Assembly (NCBI GenBank): GCA_015075225.1
Contig: JABTUQ010000001.1
Span: forward strand, 1 to 64,000
Length of the DNA: 64,000 nt
Reading direction: 5' to 3'
From: Burkholderiales bacterium
Lineage (GTDB): Bacteria > Pseudomonadota > Gammaproteobacteria > Burkholderiales > Nitrosomonadaceae
Part shown: in pieces, positions 7,562 to 64,000 of the stretch
How positions within the stretch are numbered: position 1 is the first letter of the stretch
Layout of the letters: each line of letters starts with the position of its first letter
Translations under genes and position numbers: made by a program
Notes under the pieces: generated by a model
The model's database searches: none
What the model saw: the letters and a program-made list of their open reading frames with translations, nothing else
What the model was told of the DNA's origin: nothing

Positions 7562-8308
7562 TCATGCTTCAGAATCGAGCTGATCCGCCAGGGCTTGCGC
7601 TTCCTTGAAATCAAGTGAACCCTGGTAAATTGCCCTGCCTGTGATGACACCCGTGATTCCTTCAGATTGAACCGCACACAATTTCCGGATATCGTCCAGA
7701 TTAGTGACTCCGCCGCTGGCAATGACCGGAATGGTCAGTGCCTGAGCAAGTTCCACGGTAGCCTCGATATTGAGCCCGCTGAGCATGCCATCACGGCCGA
7801 TGTCGGTATGAATAATGGCTTCTACGCCGTAATCCTGGAATTTTTTTGCAAGGTCGATAACATCGTGGCCAGTGACTTTTGACCAGCCGTCAACCGCCAC
7901 CTTTCCACCTTTGGCATCTAGTCCGACCATGATTTTGCCAGGAAAGGCATAACAGGCGTCGTGTAGAAAACCGGGGATCTTGACTGCCGCTGTCCCGATA
8001 ATCACGTAACTGATCCCGTTGTCCAGATAATACTCCACCGTTTCCAGATCGCGGATTCCTCCGCCCAGCTGGATTGGAAGCCTTCCATCGATTGCTTCTA
8101 CGATTGCACGGATAGCTTCACCATTTTTTGGTTTTCCAGCAAAAGCGCCGTTTAGGTCAACCAGATGCAGTTGACGTGCACCATGATCATGCAAGTGCAG
8201 CGCTACTGTTTCAGGGTTTTCTGAAAATACAGTGGCATCCTCCATAATGCCTTGCTTCAAACGGACACAATGCCCATCTTTGAGATCTATAGCAGGGATA
8301 ATCAGCAT
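7562..8308 (-). CDS. hisA: phosphoribosylformimino-5-aminoimidazole carboxamide ribotide isomerase HisA
   Basis: TIM-barrel isomerase converting ProFAR to PRFAR, the substrate of HisF-HisH. The 248-residue protein starts [20 protein letters not shown] with the catalytic aspartate, has [16 protein letters not shown] in the middle with the second, and [12 protein letters not shown] and [11 protein letters not shown] near the C-terminus. It lies 72 bp downstream of hisH and 84 bp upstream of hisF. Confidence 0.98.
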
Positions 8309-8380
8309 ATAGGTTTATCTGAGTGGATAGTCAGGGTTAAAAAATAATAAAACAGGAAAAAGAGTGAAGTGGTAATGCTG

Positions 8381-9022
8381 TCAGGGAACCCATTTCAGGA
8401 AATTACTCAATAATGCCAAGCCCGCAGAATGACTTTTTTCAGGATGAAACTGAACTGCAAAAATATTATCTTTGGCGACTGCGCATGTAAATGGAGTCGG
8501 GTAATCTGTGCTGCCTGCGATGATTTCTGATTCATCTGTCGCTACATAATAACTGTGAACGAAGTAGAAGCGTGTATCAGGTTCGATTCCCTGCCACAGC
8601 GGGTGCTTCAAAGTTTGATGAACCTGGTTCCAGCCCATGTGAGGAATCTTGATTTTCGGGTTGTCATGATGGCTGGTTATATTTCCGGATTCCAGTTTTT
8701 TAACCTTTCCGGGCAATATGCCCAAGGCCTGGATGCCGCCTTCTTCGCTTTCCTCGAACAACATTTGCAATCCCAGACAAATGCCAAGGAAAGGTTTGTT
8801 CCGGGCGGCTTCAATGATGGTTTCGCGCAGCCCTTGTTCGTTTAGCGCCTGCATGCAATGAGGCATGGCTCCCTGACCAGGAACAACAACACGGGAGGCT
8901 GACCGGATCACTTCCGGATCGCTGGATACGGTAATGGCAGCAGAAGAATCGACATGTTCCAGTGCTTTGGATACCGATCTCAGGTTGCCCATCCCGTAGT
9001 CAACAATGGCAATCGAGTTCAT
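8381..9022 (-). CDS. hisH: imidazole glycerol phosphate synthase glutaminase subunit HisH
   Basis: Class I glutamine amidotransferase that feeds ammonia to HisF. The 213-residue product has the oxyanion-strand VVPGQGAMPHCM, the nucleophile in FLGICLGLQMLFE, and the catalytic His-Glu pair in FAVQFHPEKSHSAG. It starts 30 bp downstream of hisB. Confidence 0.98.
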   Translation of the reverse strand: MNSIAIVDYGMGNLRSVSKALEHVDSSAAITVSSDPEVIRSASRVVVPGQGAMPHCMQALNEQGLRETIIEAARNKPFLGICLGLQMLFEESEEGGIQALGILPGKVKKLESGNITSHHDNPKIKIPHMGWNQVHQTLKHPLWQGIEPDTRFYFVHSYYVATDESEIIAGSTDYPTPFTCAVAKDNIFAVQFHPEKSHSAGLALLSNFLKWVP

Positions 9023-9052
9023 ATTTGTATCAGTGTGTTGGGTGTATTTTGC

Positions 9053-9640
9053 TTACAGCACACCTTTGGTGGATGGCACAACGTTATCACTGCGCGGATC
9101 GGGCGTGACGGCCATGCGCAACGCCCGGCCAAATGCCTTGAATATGGTTTCAGCCTGGTGATGTGCATTTTTGCCAGCCAGGTTATCAATATGCAGCGTC
9201 ACCATGGCGTGATTGACGAAGCCCTGAAAAAATTCCTGCACCAGGTCTACATCGAATGTGCCGATCATCGCACGAGTGAAAGTGGTGTTGAATTGCAACC
9301 CGGGTCGTCCTGATAGATCAATGACAACTCTGGATAAAGCTTCATCAAGAGGTACATAAGCATGACCATAGCGGAAAAGCCCTTTTTTATCACCCAGTGC
9401 GCTGTGTAATGCCTGCCCCAGTGCAATGCCGATATCTTCCACGGTATGGTGTGCATCAATATGGAGATCTCCTTTCGCATCAACACGCAAATCCAGTATG
9501 CCATGACGGGCAATTTGATCGAGCATGTGGTCAAGGAAAGGAACTCCACTGTTCAGTTCCGCTTTTCCCTGGCCATCCAGGTTAATTGCAACGGTGATTT
9601 GAGTTTCCTGGGTATTGCGGGTGACTTGAGCTGTACGCAT
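9053..9640 (-). CDS. hisB: imidazoleglycerol-phosphate dehydratase HisB
   Basis: Manganese-dependent dehydratase making imidazole acetol phosphate. The 195-residue protein is the monofunctional form, without the histidinol phosphatase domain found in enterobacteria. It has the duplicated metal-binding His pattern in [25 protein letters not shown] and [12 protein letters not shown], followed by [16 protein letters not shown]. It sits between hisC and hisH. Confidence 0.98.
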
Positions 9641-9682
9641 GAATATTGGATTTAGAACGGGATGGCTTGGCAGATCTTTTGG

Positions 9683-10762
9683 TTAATTTCCAGCGATCAA
9701 ATCTTGCAGAGTGCTGCAGAAATAATCATTTTCTTCTGGTGTGCCTACAGTTACCCGGAGGCAATTTTTTAATAAGGGGTGACTGTTGTCAAGATTCTTT
9801 ATCAAAACACCCCGTTGCTGAAGCTGTCTGAAAATCTGACTGGCATTGTCGATGCGGAATAAAACGAAATTGGCATCGGACGGATATACCTCAATATCAC
9901 CTATTTTTCCCAGAAAATGACATAGCTGGGTGCGCGTTTGTTTAACTGATTCGGCCTGCTGCTGTAATACGTCATAATGCTGCATGATTTTTGTCGCCAC
10001 AAGCTGGGTAATGACGTTGATATTGTAAGGCAGGCGCAGCTTTTCCAGGTGCGATAACCATTCCTGTCGTCCAGCGACGAATCCTAACCGAAGCCCGGCC
10101 AATCCCAATTTGGAAAGCGTACGCATTACCAGCAGGTTAGGGTAATCCGCAAGTTTATTCATGAAACTTTTTCCTGCAAAAGGATGGTAAGCCTCGTCTA
10201 TCACGACTAAGCCAGGGGAGGCGGCAATAATTTTCTCCAGGGTGTCGGTATCGAACAGATTGCCGCTCGGATTATTCGGGTAGGCCAAAAATATGACAGC
10301 AGGCTGGTGAGATGCAATTGCATCCAGCATCATATCAAGATCCAGAGAAAAATTCGGTTTCAATGGAACTCCGACATATTCCATGTGCGCGAAAGTGGCA
10401 ATCATTTTGAACATGGCAAACCCGGGTTCGACTGTCAGCAGTTTTGCGCCCGGTTTTGCTGTTGCCAGCAAAATAATCTGGATAATTTCGTCTGATCCAT
10501 TGCCCAGCATAATTTCCATGTCGGAGGGGATGGATAGGGCGCCTTTGAGTGTTTTCCTGAGCGCTGTGGTGTACGGATCAGGGTAGCGATTGATACTGAC
10601 ATCAGCAGTAATCCGGGAAATTTCTTCGCTCAAAAATGATGGCAGCCGGTAGGGATTTTCCATCGCATCCAGCTTGATCATATTCTCTGCGGGCGGGACA
10701 TGATATGCCGATAGCGCGAGAATTTCCTGGCGAATGATTTTGTCAGGTAGGGATGAAGCCAT
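9683..10762 (-). CDS. hisC: histidinol-phosphate aminotransferase HisC
   Basis: PLP enzyme, class I/II aminotransferase fold, that transaminates imidazole acetol phosphate with glutamate. The 359-residue sequence shows [11 protein letters not shown] at the N-terminus, [25 protein letters not shown] and the PLP-lysine motif [16 protein letters not shown]. It is the first clear his gene of the cluster, with a small membrane protein 32 bp upstream on the same strand. Confidence 0.96.
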
Positions 10763-59301: not shown

Positions 59302-61054
59302 CTAGTAATCCGCAGCATCAAACGCAAAGGCATGCCTTTCACTTCCTTCGCATACTGATTCGGTTGGCGACATCTCAAGGGCCCAATGCTTCTTGAGCAC
59401 ACCGACGAGGCGCTCCTGCCGATCAATCAGTATCTCCGGTGTCCATTCGTTCTCTGATCTGGCTTCCTGCGTCAGGATGAAGGGTGACGCTGTGCCCTTG
59501 CCCTTGAAGTACACGCTCTTTTTCTTGGCGAAGTCGTAGTTGCTGGCGGAAGAGTTCTTGTTCCGGTCGAGCGGAACCAAGTTGGCCAAGCGGTGTGTCC
59601 ACGCTTCCCGTTCGTTCTCATCGGGGAACCACTGGAGCCAGTCCGAGCCATCTGGCGGTGTTTGCGGCAGGACGTGCTCCAACGACACGGCATTCTGCAG
59701 TTGCACTCCGGGCGCGCGCACCAAGGACTCAAGGCGCAAGACCAGCGCCATCCTTGCCTTGGGCAAATCTTCGTAAACGTCTCCATTGAGTGCCGCGACG
59801 AACTTGCGCTTTTGCGCGTCTGTCAGGGCGAGCGTGGTGAGCGCGGCCAGATCCCCCTTGAAGGTCTCCGGCTCGATTTCCTTGGTGAGCGCAGCGTAGG
59901 TTTCGATGCGCTCGTTGATGCCTGCGGTGACCAGCAGGGAAATAGGTAAGGCGTTCAGTGACTGGAAAAACTCCGCGAGCAGTTTGGGTTGTTGCCGAGC
60001 GCGGAAGTAGACCAGTGCCGGGGGCACAGTCTGCCAAGTCCACGCGATTGAGCCAAGATCGGTGCTCGTTGATAGTCTCGGCGTGTCGGTAGCTTTGAAG
60101 TCGGCATCGCGCACGAAATCCCATGCTTCCGGCATGGGATTTGATGACGCTTGTCGACGGGGTCGATAGGGGTCTTGTACTCGTGACGCTCCTGGAATTC
60201 CTTGACCGGGATGTACTTCTGCTTCTTCGTGGCGTGATGCTGCGGATGTGGCCAAACAGGTCACCGAAGGCATCACGGCCAGCAGCTTTCGATCCGACTC
60301 CACTCTTTGGCGTAGGCACGGCTCTTGACCTCGCCTGCCGTGGTGCGGATCAGGCCCAGCACCTGCGCCTTGAAGTGATGTCGATAGGCGCGAGGTCGAG
60401 CCCCCGGTTGTTGAGCACGGAGAAGATGCGGTATGCGGCTTCAAGATCGGGCGTGGAGATGACAACCAGCGAGCAGTCGTTGGCGAGGAACTTCCACAGG
60501 GCGTTCAAATCGGCAGGCGACAGGGCTTTGGCCTTTTTAAGCAACAGTGTGGCGTTTTCGCGGTAACGCAGGCGGCTGTCTTTCAGCTTGTCCGTGCTGG
60601 AAACCAGACGCTCCAACCCGCCTTGTTCCTGGACATAGGTACGGAAAAAATCGGCATCCTCTTCGCGAGCCTTCAGCCGATACTCGTTGCTCTCGCCCCA
60701 CTCAGGATTTCCCTCCTTGTATAGGTATTTAGTGAGAAAAGAGGCCGAGTTCGGCATTAGCACGCGCAAAACTGCAAGTAGTATCGTGAGCGTGGACAGG
60801 CGTTGCTGGCCATCAACCACAAACGACTTTGGATCTCGATCTGCCTTGATCAGAACGATGCTGCCGAGGAAATATTGACTGCTGGCTCCGGAGACTCGCG
60901 CGTCCTGCATCGCCGAGATCAGATCGTCGAACAACTCACCCGCCTGCTCAGTCGTCCAGGCGTAGGGACGTTGATAGTCCGGAATCTCGAACTGGTAGCT
61001 GCCCTCGAAAATCTCGCGGATCAGCTTGTCGTGGGCTTCAAGTGTCTTGGCCAT
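59302..61054 (-). pseudogene. DUF262/DUF1524 protein (GmrSD-like, putative defence), frameshifted
   Basis: From the ATG at 61054 the first 225 codons are a good DUF262 domain: FEIPDYQRPYAWTTEQ near residue 25 and SFVVDGQQRLSTLTILLAVL near 80, the nucleotide-related motif. The frame then breaks after LDLAPIDI near 60385 and shifts again near 60300 and 60240. It continues as the C-terminal part to 59302, which has the DUF1524 nuclease-like pattern VSLEHVLPQTPPDGSDW and HRLANLVPLDRNKNSSASNY. Intact relatives (GmrSD, BrxU) cut modified phage DNA. Local base composition appears more GC-rich than that of the flanking genes. An IS1595-type remnant lies 17 bp upstream of the start. Confidence 0.82.
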
Positions 61055-62675: not shown

Positions 62676-62756
62676 AAATGCTCATTTATTACGTATAAAC
62701 TCCACTTTTGCCGGTTTTGCCTTGAACTGACTACTCGCTGATATTTTCAGAGCTCC
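62676..62756 (+). repeat. MITE-like repeat, copy E, truncated
   Basis: The right 81 bp of the family: AAATGCTCATTTATTACGTA, TTGCCTTGAACTGACT, ending GATATTTTCAGAGCTCC. The left terminal repeat is missing and several bases are deleted. It supplies the stop codon and last 24 codons of the chain-length protein on the minus strand. Confidence 0.82.
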
Positions 62757-64000
62757 TGAACAATAAAGTTTCGGCCTTATATTCCGGTCGTTTTCGGTCT
62801 TATGAAATATCCGGGTAACCGGGTAGAACAGGTTAACCATTTCGAGCGGTTGTTTGGCTCCCGGTGGGGCGTAAATACCGTAATCCGACAATATAGACGG
62901 TGAAATATACCCAACGACGGGTTCAAGATCAGACAGCCGTATGCCTTGTCTCACCAAATAGAGGATATAGGTCTGGCGCAATAATTCGGCTGTAATCCGA
63001 TCCGGTGCGGGCAAGCCGGCATCTATTTGCAGGCAGGTCAGCAAGGCTGCCAGATCGCCCTCATTCATGCGATTTCCGGCAGGGTCAGTCAGACAATAGC
63101 CGTGCGTGCCATAAATCACGGTCAGGGCAGGGTGGAGCGGAATGGTTCTGGCAGATACATTCCTGATAGTGAACGCATGATTTTTGAGATCAACATCAGC
63201 ATCCTGCAAATTGGCAATTTCACTCAATGTCAAACCACTGAGTAACAGAATCAACAGTTGTTTTTCCTTGATGTTGGCTGCCTGAAACAGGCTGGCAACT
63301 TGTTGCGGACTGAGTTCATCAATGCTGGCGTGCTCAATGGCCCGCGCAGTTTCCTGTGGAAGATTGACCGGCGTGGCAGGCAAAATGTTAATGGTGCTGT
63401 GGGGCTGGTTATCCTGATTATGCAAATGAATGCCGGACAAATGGATCGCCAGTTTTTCCTGTTCCTTATTCATCAAAAATTCATAGATCCAGATTGCTGC
63501 CAGACCAAGCAACAAGGAGGCCAGAGCAGCAATCATGGCGTTCCACGGATAATCAGGTTTGATTGGGTGAGCGGGCAGGAAGGCGCGTTCAATGACATCA
63601 ACGTAGGGATACTTTCCGGTATGTTGCGCCTCAACTTGAGCCAATCTTGCCTGTGTTTCGCGGTAGAGCAGTTCCAGCTCTTCCAGATCGGATTTCAGTG
63701 CTTCATGTTCAGTAAAACGGGTAGTGAATTCTGTTGCCTTTTTTCTATGCTGGTCGAGCTGTTCCTGTATCGAGCGGGTGGCTTGCCGGGCGGCGGCATA
63801 TTCCTGTTCTGCTTCACTGACAACAATCGCCTGGCCTTTCTGACGGAAATGCTGGATTTCATCATCCAGAGCATGTAATTTTTCCGGGATTACCTTGAGA
63901 TCGGGAGATAGAGCCATGTATTCACGTGTATATTGCCGATCCAGTTCTTCCAGCTGCTCGCGTAGTTCCTGAGCCCGTTTTTCAAGAACACTCAGGGTGC
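62682..64000 (-). CDS. Wzz/GumC-type polysaccharide chain-length protein with a recombinase-like C-terminal domain (5' end beyond window)
   Basis: The frame is open to the window edge, so the N-terminus and first membrane helix are missing. Counting from the first visible Met (63917): a coiled-coil region to about residue 95; the proline-rich PIKPDYP segment (119-123) and a second membrane helix (about 127-147), as in PCP/GumC proteins that set exopolysaccharide length; a linker; then residues 202-350 look like a tyrosine recombinase: LSPQQVASLFQA, LLILLLSGLTLSEIANLQ, RTIPLHPAL, ITAELLRQTYILYLVRQGI and VVGYISPSILSDYGIY. The first catalytic Arg is Thr230, the HxxR His is Glu311 and the GH His is Tyr337, so it should be inactive. 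Residues 388-411 come from MITE copy E. Confidence 0.8.
   Translation of the reverse strand, partial: TLSVLEKRAQELREQLEELDRQYTREYMALSPDLKVIPEKLHALDDEIQHFRQKGQAIVVSEAEQEYAAARQATRSIQEQLDQHRKKATEFTTRFTEHEALKSDLEELELLYRETQARLAQVEAQHTGKYPYVDVIERAFLPAHPIKPDYPWNAMIAALASLLLGLAAIWIYEFLMNKEQEKLAIHLSGIHLHNQDNQPHSTINILPATPVNLPQETARAIEHASIDELSPQQVASLFQAANIKEKQLLILLLSGLTLSEIANLQDADVDLKNHAFTIRNVSARTIPLHPALTVIYGTHGYCLTDPAGNRMNEGDLAALLTCLQIDAGLPAPDRITAELLRQTYILYLVRQGIRLSDLEPVVGYISPSILSDYGIYAPPGAKQPLEMVNLFYPVTRIFHKTENDRNIRPKLYCSGALKISASSQFKAKPAKVEFIRNK

Follow-up and report, generated by a model that had tools for sequence, protein, structure and literature searches.

A probable polysaccharide co-polymerase joined to a dead tyrosine-recombinase domain is conserved in many ammonia-oxidising and methanotrophic bacteria

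At the end of the 64,000-nucleotide stretch of DNA analysed here (the window: positions 1 to 64,000 of contig JABTUQ010000001.1, assembly GCA_015075225.1, from a Burkholderiales bacterium of the Nitrosomonadaceae), a minus-strand gene encodes a polysaccharide co-polymerase (PCP) joined to a tyrosine-recombinase domain that has lost most of its catalytic residues, and we consider this fusion to be a real, conserved and new variant of PCP-2. We read the protein as a PCP-2-type co-polymerase with a dead recombinase domain in the kinase position, where the domain serves as a protein-interaction module that sets the assembly of the PCP ring; we see about as much reason to believe this reading as to doubt it; the layout of the protein, the fold, the catalytic losses and the conservation are computational results, and the mechanistic part is a hypothesis. 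The initial annotation of the window had described a single uninterrupted frame, and this holds: the frame 62682..64000 is open throughout, is truncated by the window end and belongs to a gene that extends to 64769. The full gene covers contig positions 64769-62682 (minus strand; 7682-9769, minus strand, of locus L002) and encodes 695 amino acids counted from the first ATG. Because the window end cuts the gene, a short N-terminus, the first transmembrane (TM) helix and the first part of the PCP periplasmic domain lie outside the window, which holds the C-terminal 438 residues (258-695). The features in the window, all on the minus strand, are as follows, with counts from the joint alignment described below and structural statements from an AlphaFold2 model:

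62682..64000, minus strand: gene for the PCP/pseudo-recombinase fusion (residues 258-695 of 695), which runs on outside the window as far as contig position 64769
63552..63998, minus strand: helical periplasmic region of the PCP, second half, residues 258-406; modelled helices 253-279 and 289-381 and strand 390-394, with NCBIfam matches below their cut-offs
63447..63551, minus strand: second TM helix and its cytoplasmic continuation, residues 407-441; modelled helix, hydrophobic stretch in the sequence
63318..63446, minus strand: flexible cytoplasmic linker, residues 442-484; predicted local distance difference test (pLDDT) below 50 for 436-480, least conserved part
62814..63317, minus strand: pseudo-recombinase domain, residues 485-652, with the PF00589 catalytic fold; profile and structure matches
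63228..63230, minus strand: Thr514 in place of the catalytic Arg-I; Arg in 29/29 Xer rows and 0/54 fusion rows
63147..63149, minus strand: Arg541, invariant in 54/54 fusion rows and also in 29/29 Xer rows; the preceding catalytic-Lys segment is deleted in 54/54
62976..62987, minus strand: Glu595-Leu-Leu-Arg598, equivalent to the HxxR motif; His in 0/54, Arg-II kept in 48/54
62907..62909, minus strand: Tyr621 in place of the GH His; His in 6/54
62880..62882, minus strand: Tyr630 in place of the nucleophile; Tyr in 48/54
62685..62813, minus strand: C-terminal 43 codons, not common to relatives; probably a shifted frame or a decayed 3' end

The structure was taken from the full-length AlphaFold2 model of the nearest homologue, P0001, which is identical to the in-window part at 394 of 395 positions and differs after residue 652; the model has 41 alignment rows. 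It has a pLDDT of 79.5 and a predicted TM-score (pTM) of 0.38, so the relative placement of the two halves is unreliable, and it shows in order TM1 (32-53), long helices, TM2 (407-441), a disordered linker (436-480) and a confidently modelled C-terminal domain. Mean column identity is 0.68 in the PCP part, 0.42 in the linker and 0.59 in the domain. The two TM helices flank a mostly helical region, as PCP-2a requires, and structural matches of this half include Wzc, WzzE and KpsE, with Wzc as the best full-length match by E-value. At the sequence level, the GNVR Pfam match of the window fragment is weak (E 0.003; 17.9 bits, where the cut-off is 27.7), some homologues have a precomputed PF13807 match, and the NCBIfam models TIGR03007, TIGR01005 and TIGR03017 all match the PCP part below their cut-offs. 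TIGR03007 reaches 63.6 bits (1e-17) with P0001 and 75.1 bits with P0117, short of its curated cut-off of 278.85 bits, and TIGR01005, whose profile includes a kinase part, matches the PCP part only (profile positions 131-457 of 754). By profile and by structure, no BY-kinase (bacterial tyrosine kinase) domain follows TM2 of the fusion protein, and a recombinase-fold domain is found there instead.

That a PCP is joined here to a tyrosine-recombinase-like domain had been proposed from the sequence, and several comparisons now confirm it. The PF00589 profile matches the window fragment just below its cut-off of 27.1 bits (E 4.6e-6, 27 bits) and the domain alone above it (29.6 bits); when 54 homologous domains were scanned singly, 42 matched at E <=0.01 and 12 did not. 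A profile of the family finds XerA in the Protein Data Bank at 2.2e-10, and the structural match to the tyrosine-recombinase fold, on which the initial annotation had staked the idea, was found. According to the model, there is no N-terminal core-binding domain, and the domain is preceded by the disordered linker and TM2.

The catalytic residues were compared in a joint alignment of the 54 fusion domains with 29 Xer-type catalytic domains. These controls were the best-scoring PF00589 loci, mostly XerC/XerD-like by length and no sample of all integrases; two of 31 were dropped as misfits to the motif pattern, and this pattern already requires H..R, a G-[H/W/N] step and Y, which bears on the finding that all six catalytic residues (R-K-H-R-H-Y) are present in 29/29 Xer rows. 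In the fusion, Arg-I is replaced by Thr, Ser, Asp or Asn in 54/54 domains, the His of HxxR (His-II) is lost in 54/54, the GH His is lost in 48/54 and present in six, and Arg-II and Tyr are each kept in 48/54. These are the replacements and retentions that had been predicted for the window copy, whose positions 230, 311, 314 and 337 in the earlier numbering are T514, E595, R598 and Y621 of the full protein; the deletion of the catalytic-Lys segment in 54/54 domains had been overlooked. The same pattern of loss emerged from a count over 60 rows, among them the window copy and P0001. An active integrase is thus ruled out, as Arg-I, Lys and His-II are absent from every domain. The family also has residues of its own, since Y601, Y604, Q608, R/K611, D583 and P635 are invariant or nearly so in the fusion and different in Xer, and it ends in a conserved tail (YxP...I.L.YP). 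Several conserved basic positions are lost in most or all fusion rows, and the net charge of the domain is negative in 54/54 (mean -7.3), against a mean of +5.6 in the Xer set.

The fusion is widespread among relatives, which the initial annotation had named as a second check of its idea. We searched 125 genomes of the window's family, counting a fusion at E <1e-20: 61 genomes match at E <=1e-3, 48 of which carry the fusion, and the other 13 match one half weakly. Among these 48, one (G017) shows 54 PCP residues at a contig end with the domain outside view, and another (G021) contains a single stop within the matched region. In named genomes, 66 loci encode relatives; among these, L096 and L098 gave no usable open reading frame (ORF), the domain is missing from L085 and L086, and some others are split or cut by contig ends. 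Named genomes with such loci include Nitrosomonas, Nitrosospira, Nitrosovibrio, Methylobacter, Methylotuvimicrobium/Methylomicrobium and methanotrophic symbionts of Bathymodiolus, with Nitrosomonas eutropha Nm24 and Methylotuvimicrobium buryatense 5G among the strains; further loci come from bins assigned to Methylomonas (cut), Sedimenticola, Gammaproteobacteria and one Polarisedimenticolaceae, and these bin labels may be wrong. This recurrence rules out a local rearrangement or an assembly artefact. In a class-level sample, the fusion was found in 6 of 369 genomes, and a seventh match covers the coiled coil only. In the methanotroph family of genome G373, which we take to be Methylomonadaceae, 45 of 121 genomes match: 32 have the complete fusion (one with an internal stop), in four others the domain is seen in genes that are split or lie at a contig edge, six of one genus have a PCP that ends in a short tail in place of the domain, two matches are truncated or stop early, and the last covers the coiled coil alone. 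In one methanotroph genus, three genomes (G496, G523 and G546) carry two copies of the fusion gene each.

A tree of the PCP part (76 rows, midpoint root on very long branches) does not group the Nitrosospira and Nitrosomonas copies together and places methanotroph copies between them. The six domain-less methanotroph genomes (G502, G529, G552, G570, G597 and G607; loci L142-L147) have PCP orthologues without the recombinase-like domain and all contain the exosortase XrtA, and their congener G585 (L148) retains the domain. Because the domain-less members adjoin this domain-bearing congener in the tree, the domain was probably lost in that genus. A search with the domain region (E <=1e-3, candidates limited to 0.55-1.75 times the query length) returned 134 proteins; the best 120 are all of 445-677 amino acids, most near 655, and among them no other architecture around the domain was recognised.

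In active tyrosine recombinases, each protomer donates its C-terminal segment to the next, and these exchanges form a cycle. PCP-2 proteins are believed to switch between oligomeric states that are set by tyrosine-kinase phosphorylation, and a pseudokinase has been proposed to scaffold a PCP without phosphorylation (PMC12004946). From these three points taken together we infer that the domain would be a protein-interaction or oligomerisation module. It would be unable to cut DNA and, being acidic, would probably not bind DNA well, and it may set the assembly state of the PCP ring by one of two routes: it could bind a cytoplasmic partner, for example a stand-alone BY-kinase such as that of the XrtA locus, or its conserved C-terminal tail could be passed to a neighbouring protomer. 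A bolder version, which we offer tentatively and regard as doubtful, is that the fusion defines a kinase-independent class of PCP whose ring would be assembled and released by the repurposed recombinase domain, the cyclic exchange of C-terminal tails by which recombinases synapse having been recruited to close a membrane ring around the growing polysaccharide.

Several observations weigh against our interpretation. The structural matches of the PCP half have TM-scores of about 0.2 and large root-mean-square deviations, and the full model has a pTM of only 0.38, so the PCP assignment draws on E-values, sequence and topology. As shown below, we found no conserved exopolysaccharide (EPS) neighbourhood around the gene, and a role in polysaccharide assembly is therefore argued from the PCP part. 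Domain-less PCP relatives exist in the six methanotroph genomes, in Litorirhabdus (L086) and in one mussel symbiont (L085), and the last 43 codons of the window copy are altered. The kept Arg-II and Tyr are not obviously needed by a pure scaffold. Furthermore, MrpR is a dead recombinase fold that does bind DNA (PMC10516654).

The initial annotation had left open whether the domain binds DNA or protein; charge and the lost basic positions would favour protein. A membrane-tethered regulator, whose domain would attach to a chromosomal site and link transcription to the state of the polysaccharide machine in the manner of an anchored MrpR/YopR of phage SPbeta, is quite unlikely in our judgement, because the net charge is negative in all 54 rows and the core-binding domain of MrpR and Xer is missing, with a disordered linker in its place; moreover, most or all rows have lost Lys, both catalytic His and a number of conserved basic positions. 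The invariant Y601, Y604, Q608 and R/K611 sit on or just past the helix bearing Arg-II, which suggests that the old pocket may have been rebuilt, and the domain might accordingly bind a small cytoplasmic ligand (a nucleotide, sugar nucleotide or second messenger) in the former active-site groove and gate polymerisation. We consider this unlikely, as we know of no ligand-binding use of the tyrosine-recombinase fold. That the domain is a relic, left by the chance fusion of an integrase gene with a PCP gene and retained as a passive tail, is very unlikely: its absence from the six genomes of one methanotroph genus and its rate of evolution, about twice that of the PCP part, agree with a relic, but omega is 0.09-0.27 in 19 close pairs (of which some are not independent and some have saturated dS), which indicates purifying selection, ten columns are invariant across the 54 domains, and 60 domain-bearing rows stand against eight domain-less ones in the tree, a set gathered with the fusion as query and so biased towards it. 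For the PCP part, dN/dS is 0.05-0.13 in 16 computable pairs.

A further possibility is that the fusion is an additional component specific to the XrtA/PEP-CTERM exopolysaccharide system. Among the outer-membrane polysaccharide export (OPX) matches listed, the short TIGR03027 export protein of the XrtA locus (G000:C16:9828-10052) seemed to track the fusion, which led to a comparison with XrtA. A kinase or exosortase locus had been suspected nearby; none adjoins the gene, and the same genome has on another contig (C16; the fusion is on C1) an XrtA/PEP-CTERM locus with an export protein, a chain-length determinant, a BY-kinase (L105:11877-12953) and an ATPase; a TIGR03007 member of this locus scores 709 bits. 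Within the window's family the fusion occurs in 48 of 50 XrtA genomes, the two exceptions being 75% and 80% complete, and in none of the 75 others; XrtA is thus in all 48 fusion genomes, in 47 above cut-off and in the window's own genome as two pieces of a split gene. In the class-level sample, five of six fusion genomes have XrtA (four above cut-off and the window's own split one), against 72 of 369 above cut-off overall, and in the methanotroph family any exosortase-like match is found in 31 of 36 fusion genomes versus 39 of 85 others. However, XrtA above cut-off occurs there in 8 of 36 fusion genomes versus 12 of 85 others (p 0.29), and five of the 36 have no exosortase-like match at E <=1e-15, so that dependence on XrtA is not upheld as a general rule. 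All these figures ignore phylogeny, and the pattern in the window's family may be the result of few evolutionary events. We hold a specific XrtA component to be improbable.

We found no conserved EPS operon around the gene: when the ORFs of 67 loci were clustered, no cluster beyond the fusion gene itself (65 loci) occurred in more than 12 loci. For 117 clusters located no more than two ORFs from the gene, a Pfam scan of one representative each matched 117 families, and among the best 25 of these families, which include all multi-member ones, no EPS family had more than one member near the gene. Named neighbours include ppc, ThiG, a GGDEF protein, saccharopine dehydrogenase, a putative aminopeptidase, GTPases and multihaem cytochromes. 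In eight methanotroph loci (L054, L059, L070, L071, L072, L073, L088 and L095) a glycosyltransferase directly follows the fusion gene (TIGR04283 in L095), with a fatty-acid-hydroxylase-family gene next in seven of them. Five further loci were otherwise read by eye, including L150, which has a glycosyltransferase and a polysaccharide deacetylase about 3-4 kb from the fusion gene. These glycan genes in the eight loci and L150 could hint at a glycan link. In L074 and L076 the fusion gene lies downstream of a same-strand gene run, and the last gene before it in L076 encodes a multihaem cytochrome (PF09699).

Residues 653-695 of the window copy are not common to relatives, and because the ending of P0001 diverges beyond residue 652, a shifted frame or a decayed 3' end is the probable origin of the last 43 codons. 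In seven relatives' loci a DUF3482-type GTPase gene comes after the fusion gene, either immediately or within 150 bases; in the window's genome about 4 kb with a split restriction gene lie between the two. This GmrSD-type type IV restriction endonuclease gene (59302-61054, minus strand) appears split, with its PF03235 N-domain and PF07510 C-domain in two overlapping frames. The genome's own XrtA gene (L105:18985-20000, contig C16) is split over two frames, and ppc (L002:10183-12983) likewise; the occurrence of several split genes may reflect small indels in the assembly.

The fusion resembles several known systems in part. It shares with Escherichia coli Wzc (PCP-2a) two TM helices, a long helical periplasmic domain and a cytoplasmic C-terminal domain after TM2, but has a dead recombinase fold in place of the BY-kinase and no conserved EPS operon in the loci examined. 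It is similar in sequence over the PCP part to GumC/EpsF and the XrtA chain-length determinants (TIGR03007, TIGR03017), whereas its scores stay well short of the curated cut-offs (63.6 of 278.85 bits) and it has an extra C-terminal domain and is unlinked to the XrtA locus. With XerA, XerC and XerD it shares the fold and sequence profile of the catalytic domain; unlike them, it lacks the core-binding domain, Arg-I, Lys and His-II, is acidic and is membrane-anchored. MrpR/YopR of phage SPbeta keeps the core-binding domain and binds DNA (PMC10516654), and it has no PCP part. EcpK, which acts with the PCP EpsV of Myxococcus xanthus, is likewise a kinase-independent cytoplasmic module of a PCP-2, although it is a separate pseudokinase with a BY-kinase fold, while the module described here is fused and of another fold (PMC12004946).

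Among the open PubMed Central (PMC) papers listed in our searches we recognised no description of the fusion, and the word 'integrase' is absent from the main text of PMC1569441. Names given to the fusion proteins vary between 'integrase', 'GumC family protein', 'involved in exopolysaccharide biosynthesis' and 'ExoP', which can mislead both mobile-element counts and EPS annotation. A conserved PCP with a dead recombinase offers a naturally kinase-free setting for studying the role of the cytoplasmic domain, and its occurrence in ammonia oxidisers and methanotrophs makes the question testable in Nitrosomonas europaea and Methylotuvimicrobium. If our reading is true, this would be a rare case of the tyrosine-recombinase fold being used away from DNA.
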